From Betaproteobacteria bacterium (GTDB lineage Bacteria > Pseudomonadota > Gammaproteobacteria > Burkholderiales > JACQAP01): a stretch of DNA of 64,000 nucleotides. Location: contig JACQAP010000008.1 of assembly GCA_016194905.1 (NCBI GenBank), positions 124,001 to 188,000 on the forward strand, read 5' to 3'. Under the pieces are notes generated by a model. The model worked only from the letters and a program-made list of their open reading frames with translations, ran no database searches and was not told the origin of the DNA. This document shows positions 24,942 to 30,348 of this stretch, in pieces. The position numbers and the translations under genes were made by a program. Within the stretch, counting starts at the first letter, position 1. Each line of letters starts with the position of its first letter.

Positions 24942-25787
24942 ATGATCAAAGACGCCGCGTACTATGAATCGATGTTCAACAACCGGGCGGCGGTCCCGGA
25001 ATTCCAGAGTCATTTCGACAGCTGGGCGACCCGGTCGGAACAGGCGCGGCGCAGCCTCGATGTCGAACTGGACGTGCCTTATGGCGACGACCGCATGGAA
25101 ACCATGGATATCTTTCGGCCTCGCGGCGAGGCGAAAGCGCTGCTGATGTTCATTCATGGGGGCTACTGGCGATCCCTCGACAAGAAGCACCATTCCTTCG
25201 TGGCTACACCCTTCGTGAATGCCGGGGCCGCCGTCGCCGCGATCAATTATTCGCTGTGTCCGGCGGTGAAAGTCGAAGATATCGTGCTGCAATGCCTCAA
25301 GGCCGGGGCATGGCTTTACCGCAACGCCGCAGAAGTGGGCGCGCCGCGCAACCGGATCTTCGTCGCCGGGCATTCAGCCGGCGGTCATTTGACAGCGATG
25401 TGCATGGCGGTGCAGTGGCCGCGCTATTCCCGGGGATTGCCCGAGAAAGTGATGCAGGGCGGCCTCTCGGTCAGCGGCATCTACGATCTGGGGTCGATCG
25501 CCCTAACGCCTTCGATTAACGCGGATCTACGCCTGAACGAGTCCGACGCGCTGAAATTGAGCCCGGGGCTGATGCCACCCGCCACCAAGGCGCCCGTCTA
25601 TATAGCAGTAGGGGGGCGCGAGCTCGGTGGCTTCAAGGAGCAGCACGCGCTGATCGCCAACCAGTGGTCGACCGTCATCGCGGCAGACATTCCCTGCCCC
25701 GATGACAACCATTTCACGATCCTGAATTCGTTAGCCAATCCCGAAGCCGAGCTTTGCAAGGCGGCCCTGCGAATGATGGGGCTGTAA
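24942..25787 (+). CDS. Alpha/beta hydrolase (carboxylesterase / kynurenine formamidase-like)
   Basis: 281 residues with the oxyanion motif HGGYW (His72), nucleophile elbow GHSAGGH (Ser145) and C-terminal catalytic His257 in DNHFTI. HGGYW and length are typical of esterases and arylformamidase-like hydrolases. No tryptophan-degradation genes are nearby, so the substrate stays open. A GGTGGAG site lies seven bases upstream of the ATG. The gene is followed by the second heptamer-repeat dyad. Confidence 0.82.
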   Translation: MIKDAAYYESMFNNRAAVPEFQSHFDSWATRSEQARRSLDVELDVPYGDDRMETMDIFRPRGEAKALLMFIHGGYWRSLDKKHHSFVATPFVNAGAAVAAINYSLCPAVKVEDIVLQCLKAGAWLYRNAAEVGAPRNRIFVAGHSAGGHLTAMCMAVQWPRYSRGLPEKVMQGGLSVSGIYDLGSIALTPSINADLRLNESDALKLSPGLMPPATKAPVYIAVGGRELGGFKEQHALIANQWSTVIAADIPCPDDNHFTILNSLANPEAELCKAALRMMGL

Positions 25788-25793
25788 AGGGAG

Positions 25794-25886
25794 GTGAACA
25801 GTAACCGGTGAATAGTGAACGGTAAGTAGGCCCGCCTTAAGGACGTTCTTCCGCCAACCGATCACTGTTGGCTGTTCACTGTTCAC
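25794..25886. repeat. Intergenic dyad of GTGAACA-type heptamer repeats
   Basis: Two 30-base arms (25794-25823 and 25857-25886) pair at 23 of 30 positions around a 33-base loop. Each arm is made of imperfect heptamers: GTGAACA, GTGAATA, GTGAACG on the left and CTGTTCA-type copies on the right. The architecture (30-base arms, heptamer units, intergenic) is the same as at 5541-5624, although the base sequence is different. Confidence 0.75.
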
Positions 25887-25897
25887 AATGCGGTTGA

Positions 25898-25913
25898 CTG
25901 TATATAATTACAG
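25898..25913. promoter_or_regulatory. LexA (SOS) box overlapping the -10 of the radical SAM gene
   Basis: CTGTATATAATTACAG fits the LexA consensus CTG-N10-CAG with an AT-rich centre, and is symmetric (ACTGTA-N6-TACAGT). It ends one base before the ATG at 25915 and contains a TATAAT -10 element at 25903-25908. With that -10, transcription would start at or next to the ATG, so the mRNA may be leaderless. Bound LexA would block RNA polymerase directly. Confidence 0.8.
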
Positions 25914-25914
25914 T

Positions 25915-27006
25915 ATGCCGCTGAAAACCGTTACCGGAGACCATGGCGCTGCCTACAAGGGGCGCGGGGCGACCCTCAATCCGGAGGGCCGCTTCGAGAA
26001 AGCTGCGCGGGAAGCGTTCGACGACGGATGGGATGTGCCATTCGAAGATGAGCCGGGACGGCCCAAGACCATTGTCACGGCCGAGCGCGTCAAGAGCATC
26101 ATTTCGAGAAACGATTCGCCGGACATCCCCTTCACCTGCAGCATCAACCCGTATCGCGGTTGCGAACATGGCTGCATCTACTGTTACGCGCGGCCTTCCC
26201 ACGCGTACCTGAATCTTTCGCCCGGCATCGATTTCGAGACGCGGCTATTCGCCAAGGTGAATGCAGCCGAAAAGCTGCGCGAGGAACTCGCCAAGCACGG
26301 TTACGTCTGCAGCACCATCACTATTGGCGCGAACACCGATCCTTATCAGCCGGCCGAACGCAACTGGAAGATTACCCGGTCGATCCTGGAGGTGGTGGCG
26401 GAGTGCAACCAGCCGGTCGGCATCATCACCAAGAGCGCGCTGGTCGAGCGCGACCTCGATATCCTGGCGCCCATGGCGGAAAAAGGCCTGGCAACCGTAT
26501 TTATTTCGGTGACCACTCTCGATCACGATCTGGCGCGCAGGATGGAGCCGCGGGCTTCGGCGCCGGCTCGCAGGATCGACGCCATTCGCCGCTTGGCGAA
26601 CGCCGGTGTACCGGTCGGGGTAATGGTGGCTCCGATCGTACCGTTCCTCACCGATTCGTCGACAGAGCAGATTCTCGAAGTGGCACACGATGCCGGCGCG
26701 CTCTCCGCGGGCTATGTGTTGATGCGCTTGCCGTACGAAGTGAAAGACCTTTTCAAAGACTGGCTGATGCATCACTATCCGCTTAAGGCGGAGCATGTCA
26801 TGAGCCGCGTGAAGCAGATGCGCGGCGGGCGCGAGAACGATCCCGAATTCGGCACGCGCATGCGAGGCAGCGGAGAGTTTGCCGACTTGCTGAGGATGCG
26901 GTTCGAGAAAGCCTGCAAACGGCTGGGCCTGAACGAACACCGGCGCGTGCTGGACATTGCGCAATTCAAGCGGCCGCGCCTGGACGGACAGATGGATCTG
27001 TTCTAA
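25915..27006 (+). CDS. PA0069-family radical SAM protein (SplB-like)
   Basis: 363 residues with the radical SAM cluster CxxxCxxC as CEHGCIYC (Cys83, Cys87, Cys90). Related to the spore photoproduct lyase superfamily by the segment ITIGANTDPYQPAER. The biochemical reaction is unknown. The LexA box at the start codon points to a DNA-damage role. The start ATG 25915 is preferred to GTG/ATG-type codons upstream since these lie in the repeat and SOS box. The DUF2157 gene follows after 49 bp. Confidence 0.88.
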   Translation: MPLKTVTGDHGAAYKGRGATLNPEGRFEKAAREAFDDGWDVPFEDEPGRPKTIVTAERVKSIISRNDSPDIPFTCSINPYRGCEHGCIYCYARPSHAYLNLSPGIDFETRLFAKVNAAEKLREELAKHGYVCSTITIGANTDPYQPAERNWKITRSILEVVAECNQPVGIITKSALVERDLDILAPMAEKGLATVFISVTTLDHDLARRMEPRASAPARRIDAIRRLANAGVPVGVMVAPIVPFLTDSSTEQILEVAHDAGALSAGYVLMRLPYEVKDLFKDWLMHHYPLKAEHVMSRVKQMRGGRENDPEFGTRMRGSGEFADLLRMRFEKACKRLGLNEHRRVLDIAQFKRPRLDGQMDLF

Positions 27007-27055: not shown

Positions 27056-28411
27056 ATGCGCGACGCGGGATTCATCAGACGGCTGGAAAAAGCTCTGCCT
27101 GAGTGGGGCGAGCGCGGGTTTCTTTCCGGCCAAGGCGCGAAAGACATCCTCGCCTTCGAAAAGGAGCGCGCCGGTGGCGGAATTCCCTATCTCACCGTAG
27201 CGCTGGCTATCCTCGGTGTATTGCTCCTCGGCTCCGGAATCATCAGTTTCTTCGCTGCGAACTGGCAATGGCTGCCGAAGATCGCAAAGCTCGGGGTGCT
27301 GTTCGGCGGCATGTGGGTTGCGTACGCCATCGCCGGATACATGCTCGGGCGTGGTGCCCATCCGCTGGTGGGTCAAGCGGTGTTGTTGCTCGGCGTTCTT
27401 CTGTTCGGCGCCAACATCTGGCTGATCGCACAGATTTATCACATCTCTTCGCACTACCCGAACGGCGTGTTGATGTGGGCACTCGGTGCATTGCTGGCAA
27501 GTTATCTGCTGCGTTCCCATCCCGCACTTTGCGCCGCGGCATTGCTTGCCATCCTCTGGACCGGCATGGAAGGTTTCGGCTTCGACCGTCCGGTGCACTG
27601 GCCTTATCTGCTGTTCTGGCTCGCCTGCCTGCCGCCCGTGGTTCAGCACCGCTGGCGGTTTGCCGCCCATGCGGCGGCGGTCGGTATTCTGTTCTGGAGC
27701 TGGTCTGCCGTATTTCACGTCGAATGGGCCGTGCGCGGCGGAATGCTTTACATGGCTCAGTTGTGTTTCCTGATTTATCTCGCCGCCTTTCTTGCCGGCA
27801 TGTTGATGGAGCGCACGGATAGTGCTGCCGATCTGTCCGGTCTGGTCAAACGTTATGCCGGTATCGCAGCGCTTGCCGCGCTGTTCGTCCTGACGTTTCC
27901 CGAACTTCACAAGGAAACCGGCTGGTGGCGCGCCGGCGGTGACGTCGAACCGGCGCACACCGGCCAATGGGTGATTGCGACTCTGGTTGCGCTGCTTCTG
28001 GTCATTGCACTGGCGTGGCAGCATCGCAGAGTCGATGCCGGCAGGGGGCGCCCCGGGCATCTCGACTGGGGCTGGGGTTTGCTGGCGATCGTGACGGCGT
28101 TGATCTTTGTCAACCTGTTTGCCCGCGGCGAGTATCCGCAGTTCGTTCCCATCCTGTTCAACCTGCTGTTCTTCGGCGGGCTGGTCTGGCTGATCTACGT
28201 CGGCATCGCCGCGCATGATCGCGGCCTGGTGAACCTGGCATTCGCATTCTTTGCGCTCGGCATTCTTGCGCGCTATCTCGATACTTTCTGGACCTTGCTG
28301 GGCCGCTCTTATTTCTTCATGGGCGGAGGGCTGGTGCTGATCGTCGCCGGCATCGTCCTGGAACGCAGCCGCCGCAGGATCACGCGCACCCTGGAAGGCG
28401 GCGTCAAATGA
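27056..28411 (+). CDS. DUF2157 domain-containing membrane protein
   Basis: 451 residues. The soluble N-terminus (RRLEKALPEWGERGFLSGQG) is the DUF2157 opening, followed by about 12 hydrophobic helices (for example VALAILGVLLLGSGIISFFA) to the end. Function is unknown. The start ATG 27056 has GAAGGGAA upstream. The stop overlaps the next gene by four bases, and DUF2157 plus GDYXXLXY proteins are a recurrent pair. Confidence 0.85.
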   Translation: MRDAGFIRRLEKALPEWGERGFLSGQGAKDILAFEKERAGGGIPYLTVALAILGVLLLGSGIISFFAANWQWLPKIAKLGVLFGGMWVAYAIAGYMLGRGAHPLVGQAVLLLGVLLFGANIWLIAQIYHISSHYPNGVLMWALGALLASYLLRSHPALCAAALLAILWTGMEGFGFDRPVHWPYLLFWLACLPPVVQHRWRFAAHAAAVGILFWSWSAVFHVEWAVRGGMLYMAQLCFLIYLAAFLAGMLMERTDSAADLSGLVKRYAGIAALAALFVLTFPELHKETGWWRAGGDVEPAHTGQWVIATLVALLLVIALAWQHRRVDAGRGRPGHLDWGWGLLAIVTALIFVNLFARGEYPQFVPILFNLLFFGGLVWLIYVGIAAHDRGLVNLAFAFFALGILARYLDTFWTLLGRSYFFMGGGLVLIVAGIVLERSRRRITRTLEGGVK

Positions 28412-28980
28412 GCGGACGCCTTTTCATCACCGTCCTGGTGCAGACGCTGATCCTTCTCGCGATGATCGGTATGCGCCAGTGGACGCTGGCGACCGGTATT
28501 CCCGTGATACTTGAAACCCAACCCATCGATCCGCGTTCGCTGTTTTCCGGTGACTATGTGCGGCTCAATTACAAGGTCTCCGACCTCAAACTGGAAGAGC
28601 TGGCGGGGGACGGGATATTCAAGCGCCATGACACGGTTTTCGTTGTCCTGGCGCCCGATGGCGAATACTGGAAGGCGGTATCGGTGCACCGCAGCCGTCC
28701 TCGCCCAGGCGACGGGCAGGCCGTGATCAAAGGCAGTGTCGAGTACACCGATGACAAGCTATGGGATGCGGCGGGGTACAAGATGGCGGAAGTGACGCGG
28801 CTGCACGTAAAGTACGGCATCGAGGACTACTTCGTGCAGGAAGGCACCGGTCGCGAGCTGGAGCGTCCGCAGCAGGATGAGAAGGTTTCCATCCAGGTTG
28901 CCGTGGACCGATTCGGCAATGCCGGCATCAAAGCGGTTTTGGTGAACGGCCGGCCGAAAACCATCGAAACGCTGCTCTGA
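28408..28980 (+). CDS. GDYXXLXY domain-containing protein
   Basis: 190 residues: an N-terminal membrane anchor (LFITVLVQTLILLAMIGM), then an exported domain with the diagnostic motif GDYVRLNY at about residue 49-56. The role is unknown. It starts inside the DUF2157 stop (ATGA) and ends by TGATG overlap with the DUF2007 gene, so three genes are translationally coupled. Confidence 0.85.
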   Translation: MSGRLFITVLVQTLILLAMIGMRQWTLATGIPVILETQPIDPRSLFSGDYVRLNYKVSDLKLEELAGDGIFKRHDTVFVVLAPDGEYWKAVSVHRSRPRPGDGQAVIKGSVEYTDDKLWDAAGYKMAEVTRLHVKYGIEDYFVQEGTGRELERPQQDEKVSIQVAVDRFGNAGIKAVLVNGRPKTIETLL

Positions 28981-29285
28981 TGTTGAAAATCTATTCCGCG
29001 CAGACGCTTCCCGATGCGCACCTTGTGCGTGGTCTGCTTGCGCAGGCAGGCATCGACGCGCGCGTATTCAACGAAAATGCACAGAGCGTCATGGGCGAAA
29101 TCCCCTTCCACCAAGCGTGGCCCGAAGTATGGATCATGGACGAAGGTGACGCGAAGCAGGCGCGAGATCTGATCCATCAGATCGAGCAGCCACAGCCTCG
29201 GTCAAGCCCGACGTTCTGTCCGCACTGTCATGAAGAAAATCCCGCCAACTTTCATACCTGCTGGAATTGTGGACGGGAGTTCTGA
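28980..29285 (+). CDS. DUF2007 protein with C-terminal zinc ribbon
   Basis: 101 residues. The N-terminal DUF2007 fold (LKIYSAQTLPDAHLVRGLLA; related to signal-transducing PII-like ferredoxin folds) is followed by a linker and a CPHC-x10-CWNC zinc ribbon at the end. A regulatory or adaptor role is possible but unproven. The ATG shares a base with the stop of the previous gene. Confidence 0.85.
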   Translation: MLKIYSAQTLPDAHLVRGLLAQAGIDARVFNENAQSVMGEIPFHQAWPEVWIMDEGDAKQARDLIHQIEQPQPRSSPTFCPHCHEENPANFHTCWNCGREF

Positions 29286-29349
29286 ACTGTCTGCCACGCG
29301 CCGCGGTGTGCTGCGTGAAATCGCGATGGGCGTGTTGGGAGTGCCGATC

Positions 29350-30348
29350 ATGCTGATGGCAAGGAAACTCGAAGCGGCGACCGTAACGGATGCTTGTCTA
29401 TTGGTCGGCGAGGAGCTTGCCCGGTATGGTTTTCCCAACGGACATCCGCTCGGGGCGGACCGCCAGGGCGCATTCCTGAAGGAGGCCGAAATACAAGGTT
29501 TGCTCACGAAAGTCAGGACCTGCCCGCCGCGTATCGCCACGAACGAAGAGATCGGTCGCTTCCACACGCAACGCCATATCGAGAAGGTGATGCATGCGGA
29601 GCGCGACAAGCTCGAGTTTCTCGACAATGGCGACACGCCGGTATTCGCCGGCGTTTTCGAAGCATCCGCGAATGTGGTCGGTGCGGCCCTCGACGGGCTA
29701 GCGCAAGTAGTGCGAGGTGAATGCGCCCGCAGCTTTCAGCCTATCGGCGGATTGCATCACGCCGGGCGCGACCATTCCGCGGGCTTCTGCGTGTTCAACG
29801 ATCTCGGCGTGGTGATCGAGACGCTGCGGCAGCAATACGGTATCAGGCGGATCGCCTACGTGGATATCGACGTGCATCACGGCGACGGCATTTTCTACGC
29901 TTACGAAGCAGATCCGGACCTGATTTTCGCCGACGTCCATGAGGACGGCCGCTATCTTTATCCGGGTACGGGGCGCGAAGACGAAACCGGCAAAGGTGCC
30001 GCCAAAGGCAGCAAGCTCAATATCCCGCTGAATCCGGGGTCCGGTGACCGCGAGTTCGCGGAAGTCTGGCCGCGAGTCGAACAACATCTGGTTCGCTTCG
30101 AGCCGGAATTCATTCTCTTCCAGTGTGGCGCAGACGGGCTGCAGGGTGATCCACTCGCCCACCTGGAATATTCCGCGGCAACGCACGCGCGTGCGGCAAA
30201 GAGTCTGGTGGATATCGCCGAGCGGTTCTCAAGAGGCAGGTTGATGGCCTTCGGCGGCGGAGGCTACGACCGCAATAATCTGGCAAAAGCCTGGAACGCG
30301 GTACTGCGCGAAATCGTCGCCCGGAAAACCTCGGCACTGAAAACGTAA
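29350..30348 (+). CDS. Histone deacetylase / acetoin utilisation (AcuC/AphA-like) family protein
   Basis: Zinc-dependent amidohydrolase of about 332 residues. Catalytic features: the His pair in GGLHHAGRD, metal ligands in YVDIDVHHGDGIFYAYEADP, and GGGGYD near the end. In bacteria, members deacetylate acetylpolyamines, acetyl-CoA synthetase or other amides. ATG 29350 has GGGAG eight bases upstream. A longer in-frame version from 29230 would overlap the DUF2007 gene and include ATRRGVLREIAMGVLGVPIM, which resembles a twin-arginine signal, so export cannot be excluded. Confidence 0.85.
   Translation: MLMARKLEAATVTDACLLVGEELARYGFPNGHPLGADRQGAFLKEAEIQGLLTKVRTCPPRIATNEEIGRFHTQRHIEKVMHAERDKLEFLDNGDTPVFAGVFEASANVVGAALDGLAQVVRGECARSFQPIGGLHHAGRDHSAGFCVFNDLGVVIETLRQQYGIRRIAYVDIDVHHGDGIFYAYEADPDLIFADVHEDGRYLYPGTGREDETGKGAAKGSKLNIPLNPGSGDREFAEVWPRVEQHLVRFEPEFILFQCGADGLQGDPLAHLEYSAATHARAAKSLVDIAERFSRGRLMAFGGGGYDRNNLAKAWNAVLREIVARKTSALKT

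Follow-up and report, generated by a model that had tools for sequence, protein, structure and literature searches.

We have analyzed a putative LexA operator lying immediately 5′ to a gene that encodes a PA0069-family radical SAM protein in a betaproteobacterial genome. The window, i.e., the whole stretch of DNA under analysis, is 64 kb in length. All the results are computational, and the operator, the promoter and the 5′ end of the transcript are predictions from sequence. Reading 5′ to 3′, the 16-mer CTGTATATAATTACAG is followed by a single T at 25914 and then by the ATG at 25915-25917. An earlier sequence-only reading had described a CTG-N10-CAG element with an embedded TATAAT, ending one base before the start codon, and this is confirmed by the coordinates (Table 1).

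The neighboring upstream gene (24942-25787, esterase-like) is read in the same direction, and the possibility that the operator is shared with a divergent gene was dropped on this ground. Two genes follow downstream in the same direction (27056-28980), encoding a DUF2157 membrane protein and a GDYXXLXY protein. These might be co-transcribed with the radical SAM gene, because the gap is 49 nt when the start is taken at 27056. An inverted repeat lies directly 5′ of the box; CTGTTCACTGTTCAC, allowing up to one mismatch, has 17 matches in the genome, some of them overlapping, compared with none for the reversed control.

Table 1. Features of the radical SAM locus, with positions in the window
Feature	Position	Strand	Remarks
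Imperfect inverted repeat	25794..25886		30-nt arms, 77% complementary; includes a dispersed repeat of ACTGTTCAC type; overlaps with the putative -35
Possible -35, TTCACA	25882..25887	+	5/6 matches, spacer of 15 nt only; weak
Predicted LexA operator, CTGTATATAATTACAG (extended, GACTGTATATAATTACAGTA)	25898..25913	+	Almost the same sequence as the genome's lexA-imuA box
Predicted -10, TATAAT, inside the operator	25903..25908	+	-12 to -7, counting the A of ATG as +1; family-wide register signal
PA0069-family radical SAM gene	25915..27006	+	363 aa; predicted leaderless start at 25915
CX3CX2C cluster motif (C83, C87, C90)	26161..26184	+	Invariant in 138/138 proteins

The operator is the only site in the window within three mismatches of the CTGTATATAATTACAG 16-mer, where 0.06 would be expected, and the only exact occurrence there of CTGT-N8-ACAG. 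The loose palindrome, allowing up to one mismatch, is not enriched in the window (10 found, 13.9 expected). The complete genome (4.75 Mb) was scanned with IUPAC patterns, taking the reversed pattern as control. Over the genome there was no enrichment either for exact CTGT-N8-ACAG (18 sites, against 31 for the control) or for CTGTATATAANNACAG with up to three mismatches (16 forward and 32 reverse, against 38 and 46). Since these patterns are not enriched over their reversed controls, the evidence for a LexA site rests on the core and its context rather than on motif counts. The exact sequence CTGTATATAANNACAG occurs at three genome sites only, namely the radical SAM gene, the lexA-imuA locus and a truncated integron integrase.

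In this genome lexA adjoins imuA (G000 contig 10), and their promoter contains the box CTGTATATAATAACAG, likewise with TATAAT at box positions 6-11. The operator at the radical SAM gene thus lies in a predicted promoter and resembles the operator of the genome's own lexA, as expected for a member of the SOS regulon. The two sites differ in their spacing. The gap between the box and the lexA start is 31 nt, compared with 1 nt at the radical SAM gene, so that there is room for a leader at lexA-imuA.

We also examined the regions upstream of orthologues. A box was counted where CTG-N10-CAG with up to five mismatches to CTGTATATATATACAG, which we take to be the LexA consensus and used as the scoring reference, fell in the 300 bp preceding the first aligned residue. 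We further searched for GTTC-N7-GTTC, presumed to be the alphaproteobacterial LexA motif. The PA0069 family is widespread, with matches at E ≤0.001 in 70 of 150 genomes of the order and 101 of 276 of the class, some of them partial or weak. The order set comprised 68 of the 70, two that have a C-terminal piece only being left out. The class set comprised 86 of the 101; 10 were partial, weak or at a contig edge, two were already in the order set and three gave no local match (L247, L252, L254). L049 is the same record as L004 and was dropped throughout.

CTG-N10-CAG boxes were found upstream of 39 of 110 loci, compared with three of 857 windows taken within the gene or 3′ to it and one of 415 taken further upstream. 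The sequence-only reading of the site as a LexA box therefore survives a search that could have overturned it, and is supported both by its match to the genome's own lexA-imuA box and by the boxes of orthologues, including those of the GTTC type. GTTC-N7-GTTC was present at 22 of 110 loci, whereas six other spacings gave 0-1 of 110 each; in the control windows GTTC-N7-GTTC was present in two of 857. Divided by set, CTG-N10-CAG boxes occur at 22/68 loci of the same order, 15/86 of the same class and 30/79 in named genomes. A further 22 of the 79 named genomes have GTTC-N7-GTTC, such that 52/79 have one motif or the other, and no locus has both. Nineteen of the 22 GTTC loci carry alphaproteobacterial names (Desertibaculum among them), and three are MAGs called only Proteobacteria. 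Within the genus itself three of five loci have the CTG-N10-CAG box; L006 has the weaker CTGGTATTATGTCCAG, with six mismatches, in the same place, and in L005 the CTG half-site has been lost, although it is retained in L007, which is a second piece of that genome. A Pseudomonas sp. orthologue (L118) has a box with four mismatches, 17 nt before its start.

The gene had also been proposed to be a conserved SOS gene. The boxes do recur at orthologues, but the conservation is patchy, with no recognizable box at 71/86 class loci and 46/68 order loci. The conclusion that emerges, to judge from the predicted operators, is that SOS control of PA0069-family genes is real, recurrent and patchy, and that it follows the change of motif between clades.

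At eight other orthologues (L056, L059, L060, L068, L072, L083, L188 and L205) we observed CTGAGAC or CTGAGAT 22-23 nt before the ATG, preceded by TCGC. Six of the eight have Xanthomonadales (Lysobacterales) names, Luteibacter among them. CTGAGA[CT] occurs within 150 nt at 11 of 235 loci, compared with 15 of 2292 in the control. This may be another promoter or operator that takes the place of the LexA box, and the Xanthomonadales orthologues with this motif were left out of the SOS counts.

Where does the coding sequence begin? There is an in-frame ATG at 25888, use of which would place the box within the open reading frame. In two relatives of the same genus, L004 and L005, an in-frame stop lies 13 and 7 codons upstream, respectively, with no intervening alternative start, and for this reason we favor the start at 25915. 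Alternative upstream starts are present in L006 and L007 of the same genus, as they are in the gene studied here (L003). We then compared 18 loci that were hand-picked for a box or box remnant no more than 4 nt from the ATG. In 12 of these a stop lies 3-13 codons upstream and no other possible start intervenes before the ATG; in three more there is no alternative start, but the stop is distant. The assignment of ATG 25915 as the true start is thus supported by comparison with relatives. By eye, no Shine-Dalgarno site precedes either ATG 25915 or ATG 25888.

The position of the box relative to the start codon suggests how the promoter may be built. There are 68 distinct boxes, 67 with a usable start (L067 has none). 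The box-to-start distance has modes at 1 nt (9/67) and 7 nt (6/67), and 38/67 boxes lie more than 12 nt upstream. In the 1-nt boxes, TATAAT-like hexamers occupy box positions 6-11, which places them at -12 to -7 relative to the start codon. Six of the nine have at least five of six matches to TATAAT at these positions, compared with one of the 52 boxes that lie beyond 4 nt (Fisher 1e-5); without the genus of the studied gene the comparison becomes 3/6 against 1/52 (p = 0.0025). When the palindrome is read on its opposite strand, the corresponding hexamer averages only 2.2 matches in the 1-nt boxes, against 5.0 at positions 6-11. In the 7-nt boxes it is the half-site TACAGT that occupies -12 to -7, in six of six (L100, L161, L163, L225, L229 and L246). 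A -10 inside the box is partly expected, because any LexA consensus includes a TATA-rich core. With the box 1 nt before the start and its -10 at -12 to -7, the mRNA should therefore begin at the ATG.

The same register was scored across the family, using order and class sets drawn evenly from many families. Among 230 loci, with the genus of the studied gene entered once, 162 have an ATG in the 60 nt preceding the first aligned residue, and 161 were counted. A -10 at -12 to -7 was found at 26/161 starts, compared with an average of 4.33 over 39 other offsets, the highest of which reaches 11; 135/161 starts do not have it. The corresponding Poisson value of 1e-12 takes no account of common ancestry, nor of the register having first been noticed in part of the counted loci, and should be taken as a strong contrast rather than an exact probability. 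Only the remainder of 137 starts is free of that choice, from which the 1-nt boxes, the genus, the eight CTGAGAC/T loci and the GTTC loci have been removed. Here, with a score cut-off chosen by the analysts, the -10 is at -12 in 18, against a mean of 3.6 and a maximum of 9 at other offsets, and in eight of the 18 no box reaches the cut-off.

For comparison, lexA of the same order (28 of 30 loci used) has a -10 at -12 in 2/28, against a mean of 0.72 and a maximum of 3. General open reading frames of the same loci show a mild excess (6/154, mean 2.13, maximum 7; p = 0.02). A histone-deacetylase-like gene (29230-30348) was not used as a second control because its starts are uncertain, the matches in relatives beginning mostly near residue 50 or later. 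A six-sequence alignment of upstream DNA was also left out, one row being mostly outside the upstream region. A box was found at 20 of the 28 lexA loci, and lies within 4 nt of the start in one of the 20, indicating that the abutting placement is not simply the usual position of a LexA box. A Shine-Dalgarno match of at least 3 nt accompanies 2/15 boxes at 0-4 nt, compared with 18/38 far boxes, although this scarcity is partly forced because a close box fills the space. In the -12 register the weak box of L006 has 2/6 matches and L023 has 3/6. The GTTC loci have a short-leader arrangement in 7/19 on a loose reading, and their -12 signal (2/10 in the scored test) is not clear. The leaderless mRNA, which the sequence-only reading had drawn from this one site, thus gains support from the family-wide register.

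The reading that we consider probable is that the gene has a compact LexA-repressed SOS promoter, in which the operator holds the -10 and the transcript would be leaderless from ATG 25915. An SOS-controlled gene could instead be transcribed from an upstream start, perhaps with ATG 25888 as the start codon, LexA acting as a roadblock where the open reading frame begins. The in-frame ATG at 25888 and the alternative upstream starts of L006 and L007 are compatible with this, as is the weakness of the -35 in the proposed promoter; a generic promoter scan with spacers of 16-18 nt reported neither the proposed promoter nor its TTCACA. A TTGACT at 25894 was dropped as a sigma-70 -35, being just 3 nt from the -10. 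A leader also fits the 38/67 boxes and the 19/20 lexA boxes of the order that are more than 12 nt upstream. Against this, L004, L005, L023, L026 and L037 have stops 3-13 codons upstream with no intervening alternative start, neither ATG is preceded by a Shine-Dalgarno site as judged by eye, and TATAAT stands exactly at -12, a position kept in L005 despite the loss of the CTG half-site. We therefore regard a transcript with a leader as rather unlikely.

The encoded protein is a member of NCBIfam NF033668 (rSAM_PA0069), with 517.6 bits against a cut-off of 360 and a match to model positions 1-348 of 348. We found no difference from the family, and the name of the model assigns no reaction. The sister model NF038135 (rSAM_Rv2578c) is matched partially, at 228 bits, below its cut-off of 430. 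Membership of the radical SAM superfamily follows from PF04055 (69.2 bits, cut-off 29.5) and the CX3CX2C motif. The AlphaFold model has a mean pLDDT of 81, with residues 1-48 poor. The closest solved fold, ranked first by Foldseek, is that of spore photoproduct lyase (SPL; PDB 4FHC, 4FHF and 4RH0), to which the model corresponds over residues 49-344 (Z = 19.2, rmsd 3.2 Å over 260 residues, 15% identity); the next family is NifB, with Z = 15.3. Overall fold would thus place the protein with the SPLs.

Other evidence separates the two. The SPL equivalog model TIGR04070 scores 21 bits, far below its cut-off of 400, and PF20903 scores 20.2 against 27. Sequence-only searches of the PDB, with the protein or with the alignment, returned no SPL match, only weak or repeat-protein matches. 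Across 138 orthologous proteins the three cluster cysteines alone are invariant; no further cysteine is conserved anywhere, the next best column having 81/138. The residue after C90 is Phe in 64/138; we equate this position with Y99 of SPL from the SPL motif rather than by alignment. As described in parts of PMC5368176, SPL uses a cysteine (C141 in B. subtilis) as donor of a hydrogen atom, together with a pair of tyrosines, and one SPL carries its cysteine elsewhere. For this last reason our cysteine test was made position-free, and by that test the PA0069 family lacks a conserved donor. Since no fourth cysteine is conserved, the SPL reaction should not be assumed. The earlier description of the protein as SplB-like but of no assigned reaction stands, with a fold nearest to SPL and without its conserved cysteine.

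Could the protein nevertheless be a true SPL, the gene providing SOS-induced spore photoproduct repair as the printed name splB implies? The fold, clearly ahead of the next family, speaks for it, and the gene is named a predicted photolyase in the relevant passage of PMC3323433. The cysteine count and the Phe that follows the cluster in 64/138, to be compared with the cysteine donor and tyrosine pair of SPL (PMC5368176), speak against, as does the equivalog score, and a passage in PMC12924846 advises caution in applying the name SplB to the sister family Rv2578c. We find this quite improbable. The missing fourth cysteine argues instead that the usual label may misname the reaction, and the substrate of the SOS enzyme thereby becomes a testable question.

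SOS control of such genes has been reported before. Passages in PMC3323433 describe splB of alpha- and betaproteobacteria as carrying LexA sites whose motifs diverge, and draw the same conclusion as we do; the part of PMC8565304 that concerns SplB (COG1533) describes SOS regulation in several species and splB in the SOS networks of Bacteroidetes, citing Cirz 2006 (P. aeruginosa) among the earlier reports. SplB-like proteins are linked with SOS gene neighborhoods in a section of PMC3765255. The LexA-regulated splB in the relevant passages of PMC3323433 and PMC8565304 shares the repressor logic of the present gene and is the same kind of gene by label only; there too the motif changes with clade while the gene stays under control. 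Those passages treat the protein as a photolyase or DNA-repair enzyme, and contain no discussion of operator-to-start distance or of a leaderless mRNA. A LexA target of Streptomyces venezuelae annotated "Radical SAM protein" (vnz_31145), in an excerpt of PMC9380542, was not counted, its membership of the PA0069 family not being established. In the open-access literature we found nothing on PA0069 together with LexA and, among the papers listed for PA0069 alone, none on SOS; nor did we find, among the papers and passages of that literature searched, a leaderless, operator-fused geometry for splB, SPL or PA0069. The SOS membership of the family is already published and not new, while the leaderless, operator-fused promoter predicted here appears to be new. 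That the box is a chance palindrome or another regulator's operator and the gene constitutive, as might be argued from the lack of enrichment of loose CTGT-N8-ACAG in window and genome, the recA locus without a box and the absence of boxes at most class-level orthologues, is scarcely credible against the near-identity with the lexA box, the enrichment at orthologues, the clade-linked switch of motif and the published SOS control of the family.

The mechanism of SOS induction by LexA and RecA is well established. On the promoter arrangement that we favor, the -10 lies within the 16-bp operator, which extends almost to the start codon, and LexA bound there would block RNA polymerase. DNA damage would lead to RecA-driven self-cleavage of LexA, freeing the promoter, and transcription would begin at, or one or two bases from, the A of ATG 25915. 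The resulting leaderless mRNA, without a Shine-Dalgarno site, would be translated into the PA0069-family radical SAM enzyme, which probably acts on damaged nucleic acid or a damaged nucleotide.

The arrangement may extend further. On the wider reading, which we offer tentatively as possible rather than probable, PA0069 genes across many proteobacterial families would be leaderless SOS genes in which a -10 has been selected at 12 nt before the ATG. The operator would lie at one of two distances from the ATG. At 1 nt its TATAAT core would serve as the -10, and at 7 nt its TACAGT half-site, a single short stretch of DNA thus combining the operator, the promoter and the beginning of the message. 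The protein encoded would be a radical SAM enzyme for repair of DNA or nucleotides, with chemistry unlike that of SPL. If this is true, leaderless translation would permit synthesis of the enzyme when normal initiation is impaired. Because SOS control of the family is already published, the box by itself adds one more member; the useful part is the promoter register, which predicts a leaderless mRNA for a widespread and probably damage-induced gene.

Other LexA-like sites were observed in the same genome. Boxes are present at lexA, at the radical SAM gene and at the integron integrases, unlike recA (L278, contig 4), where there is no CTG-N10-CAG within the 3.8-kb locus. A truncated integrase of 118 aa (L015:1086-1516, contig 14) lies beside the strong LexA-like box CTGTATATAAAAACAG. 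A complete integrase (L257:1501-2530, contig 19; TIGR02249, 478.8 bits) has the weaker box CTGGATATATCAACAG 30 nt 5′ of its start. SOS control of integron integrases is a known theme, noted in a passage of PMC3323433. The genome also encodes a second LexA-like S24 protein (L002:1480-2052, contig 16), which scores 99.3 bits against the LexA equivalog cut-off of 110.95.
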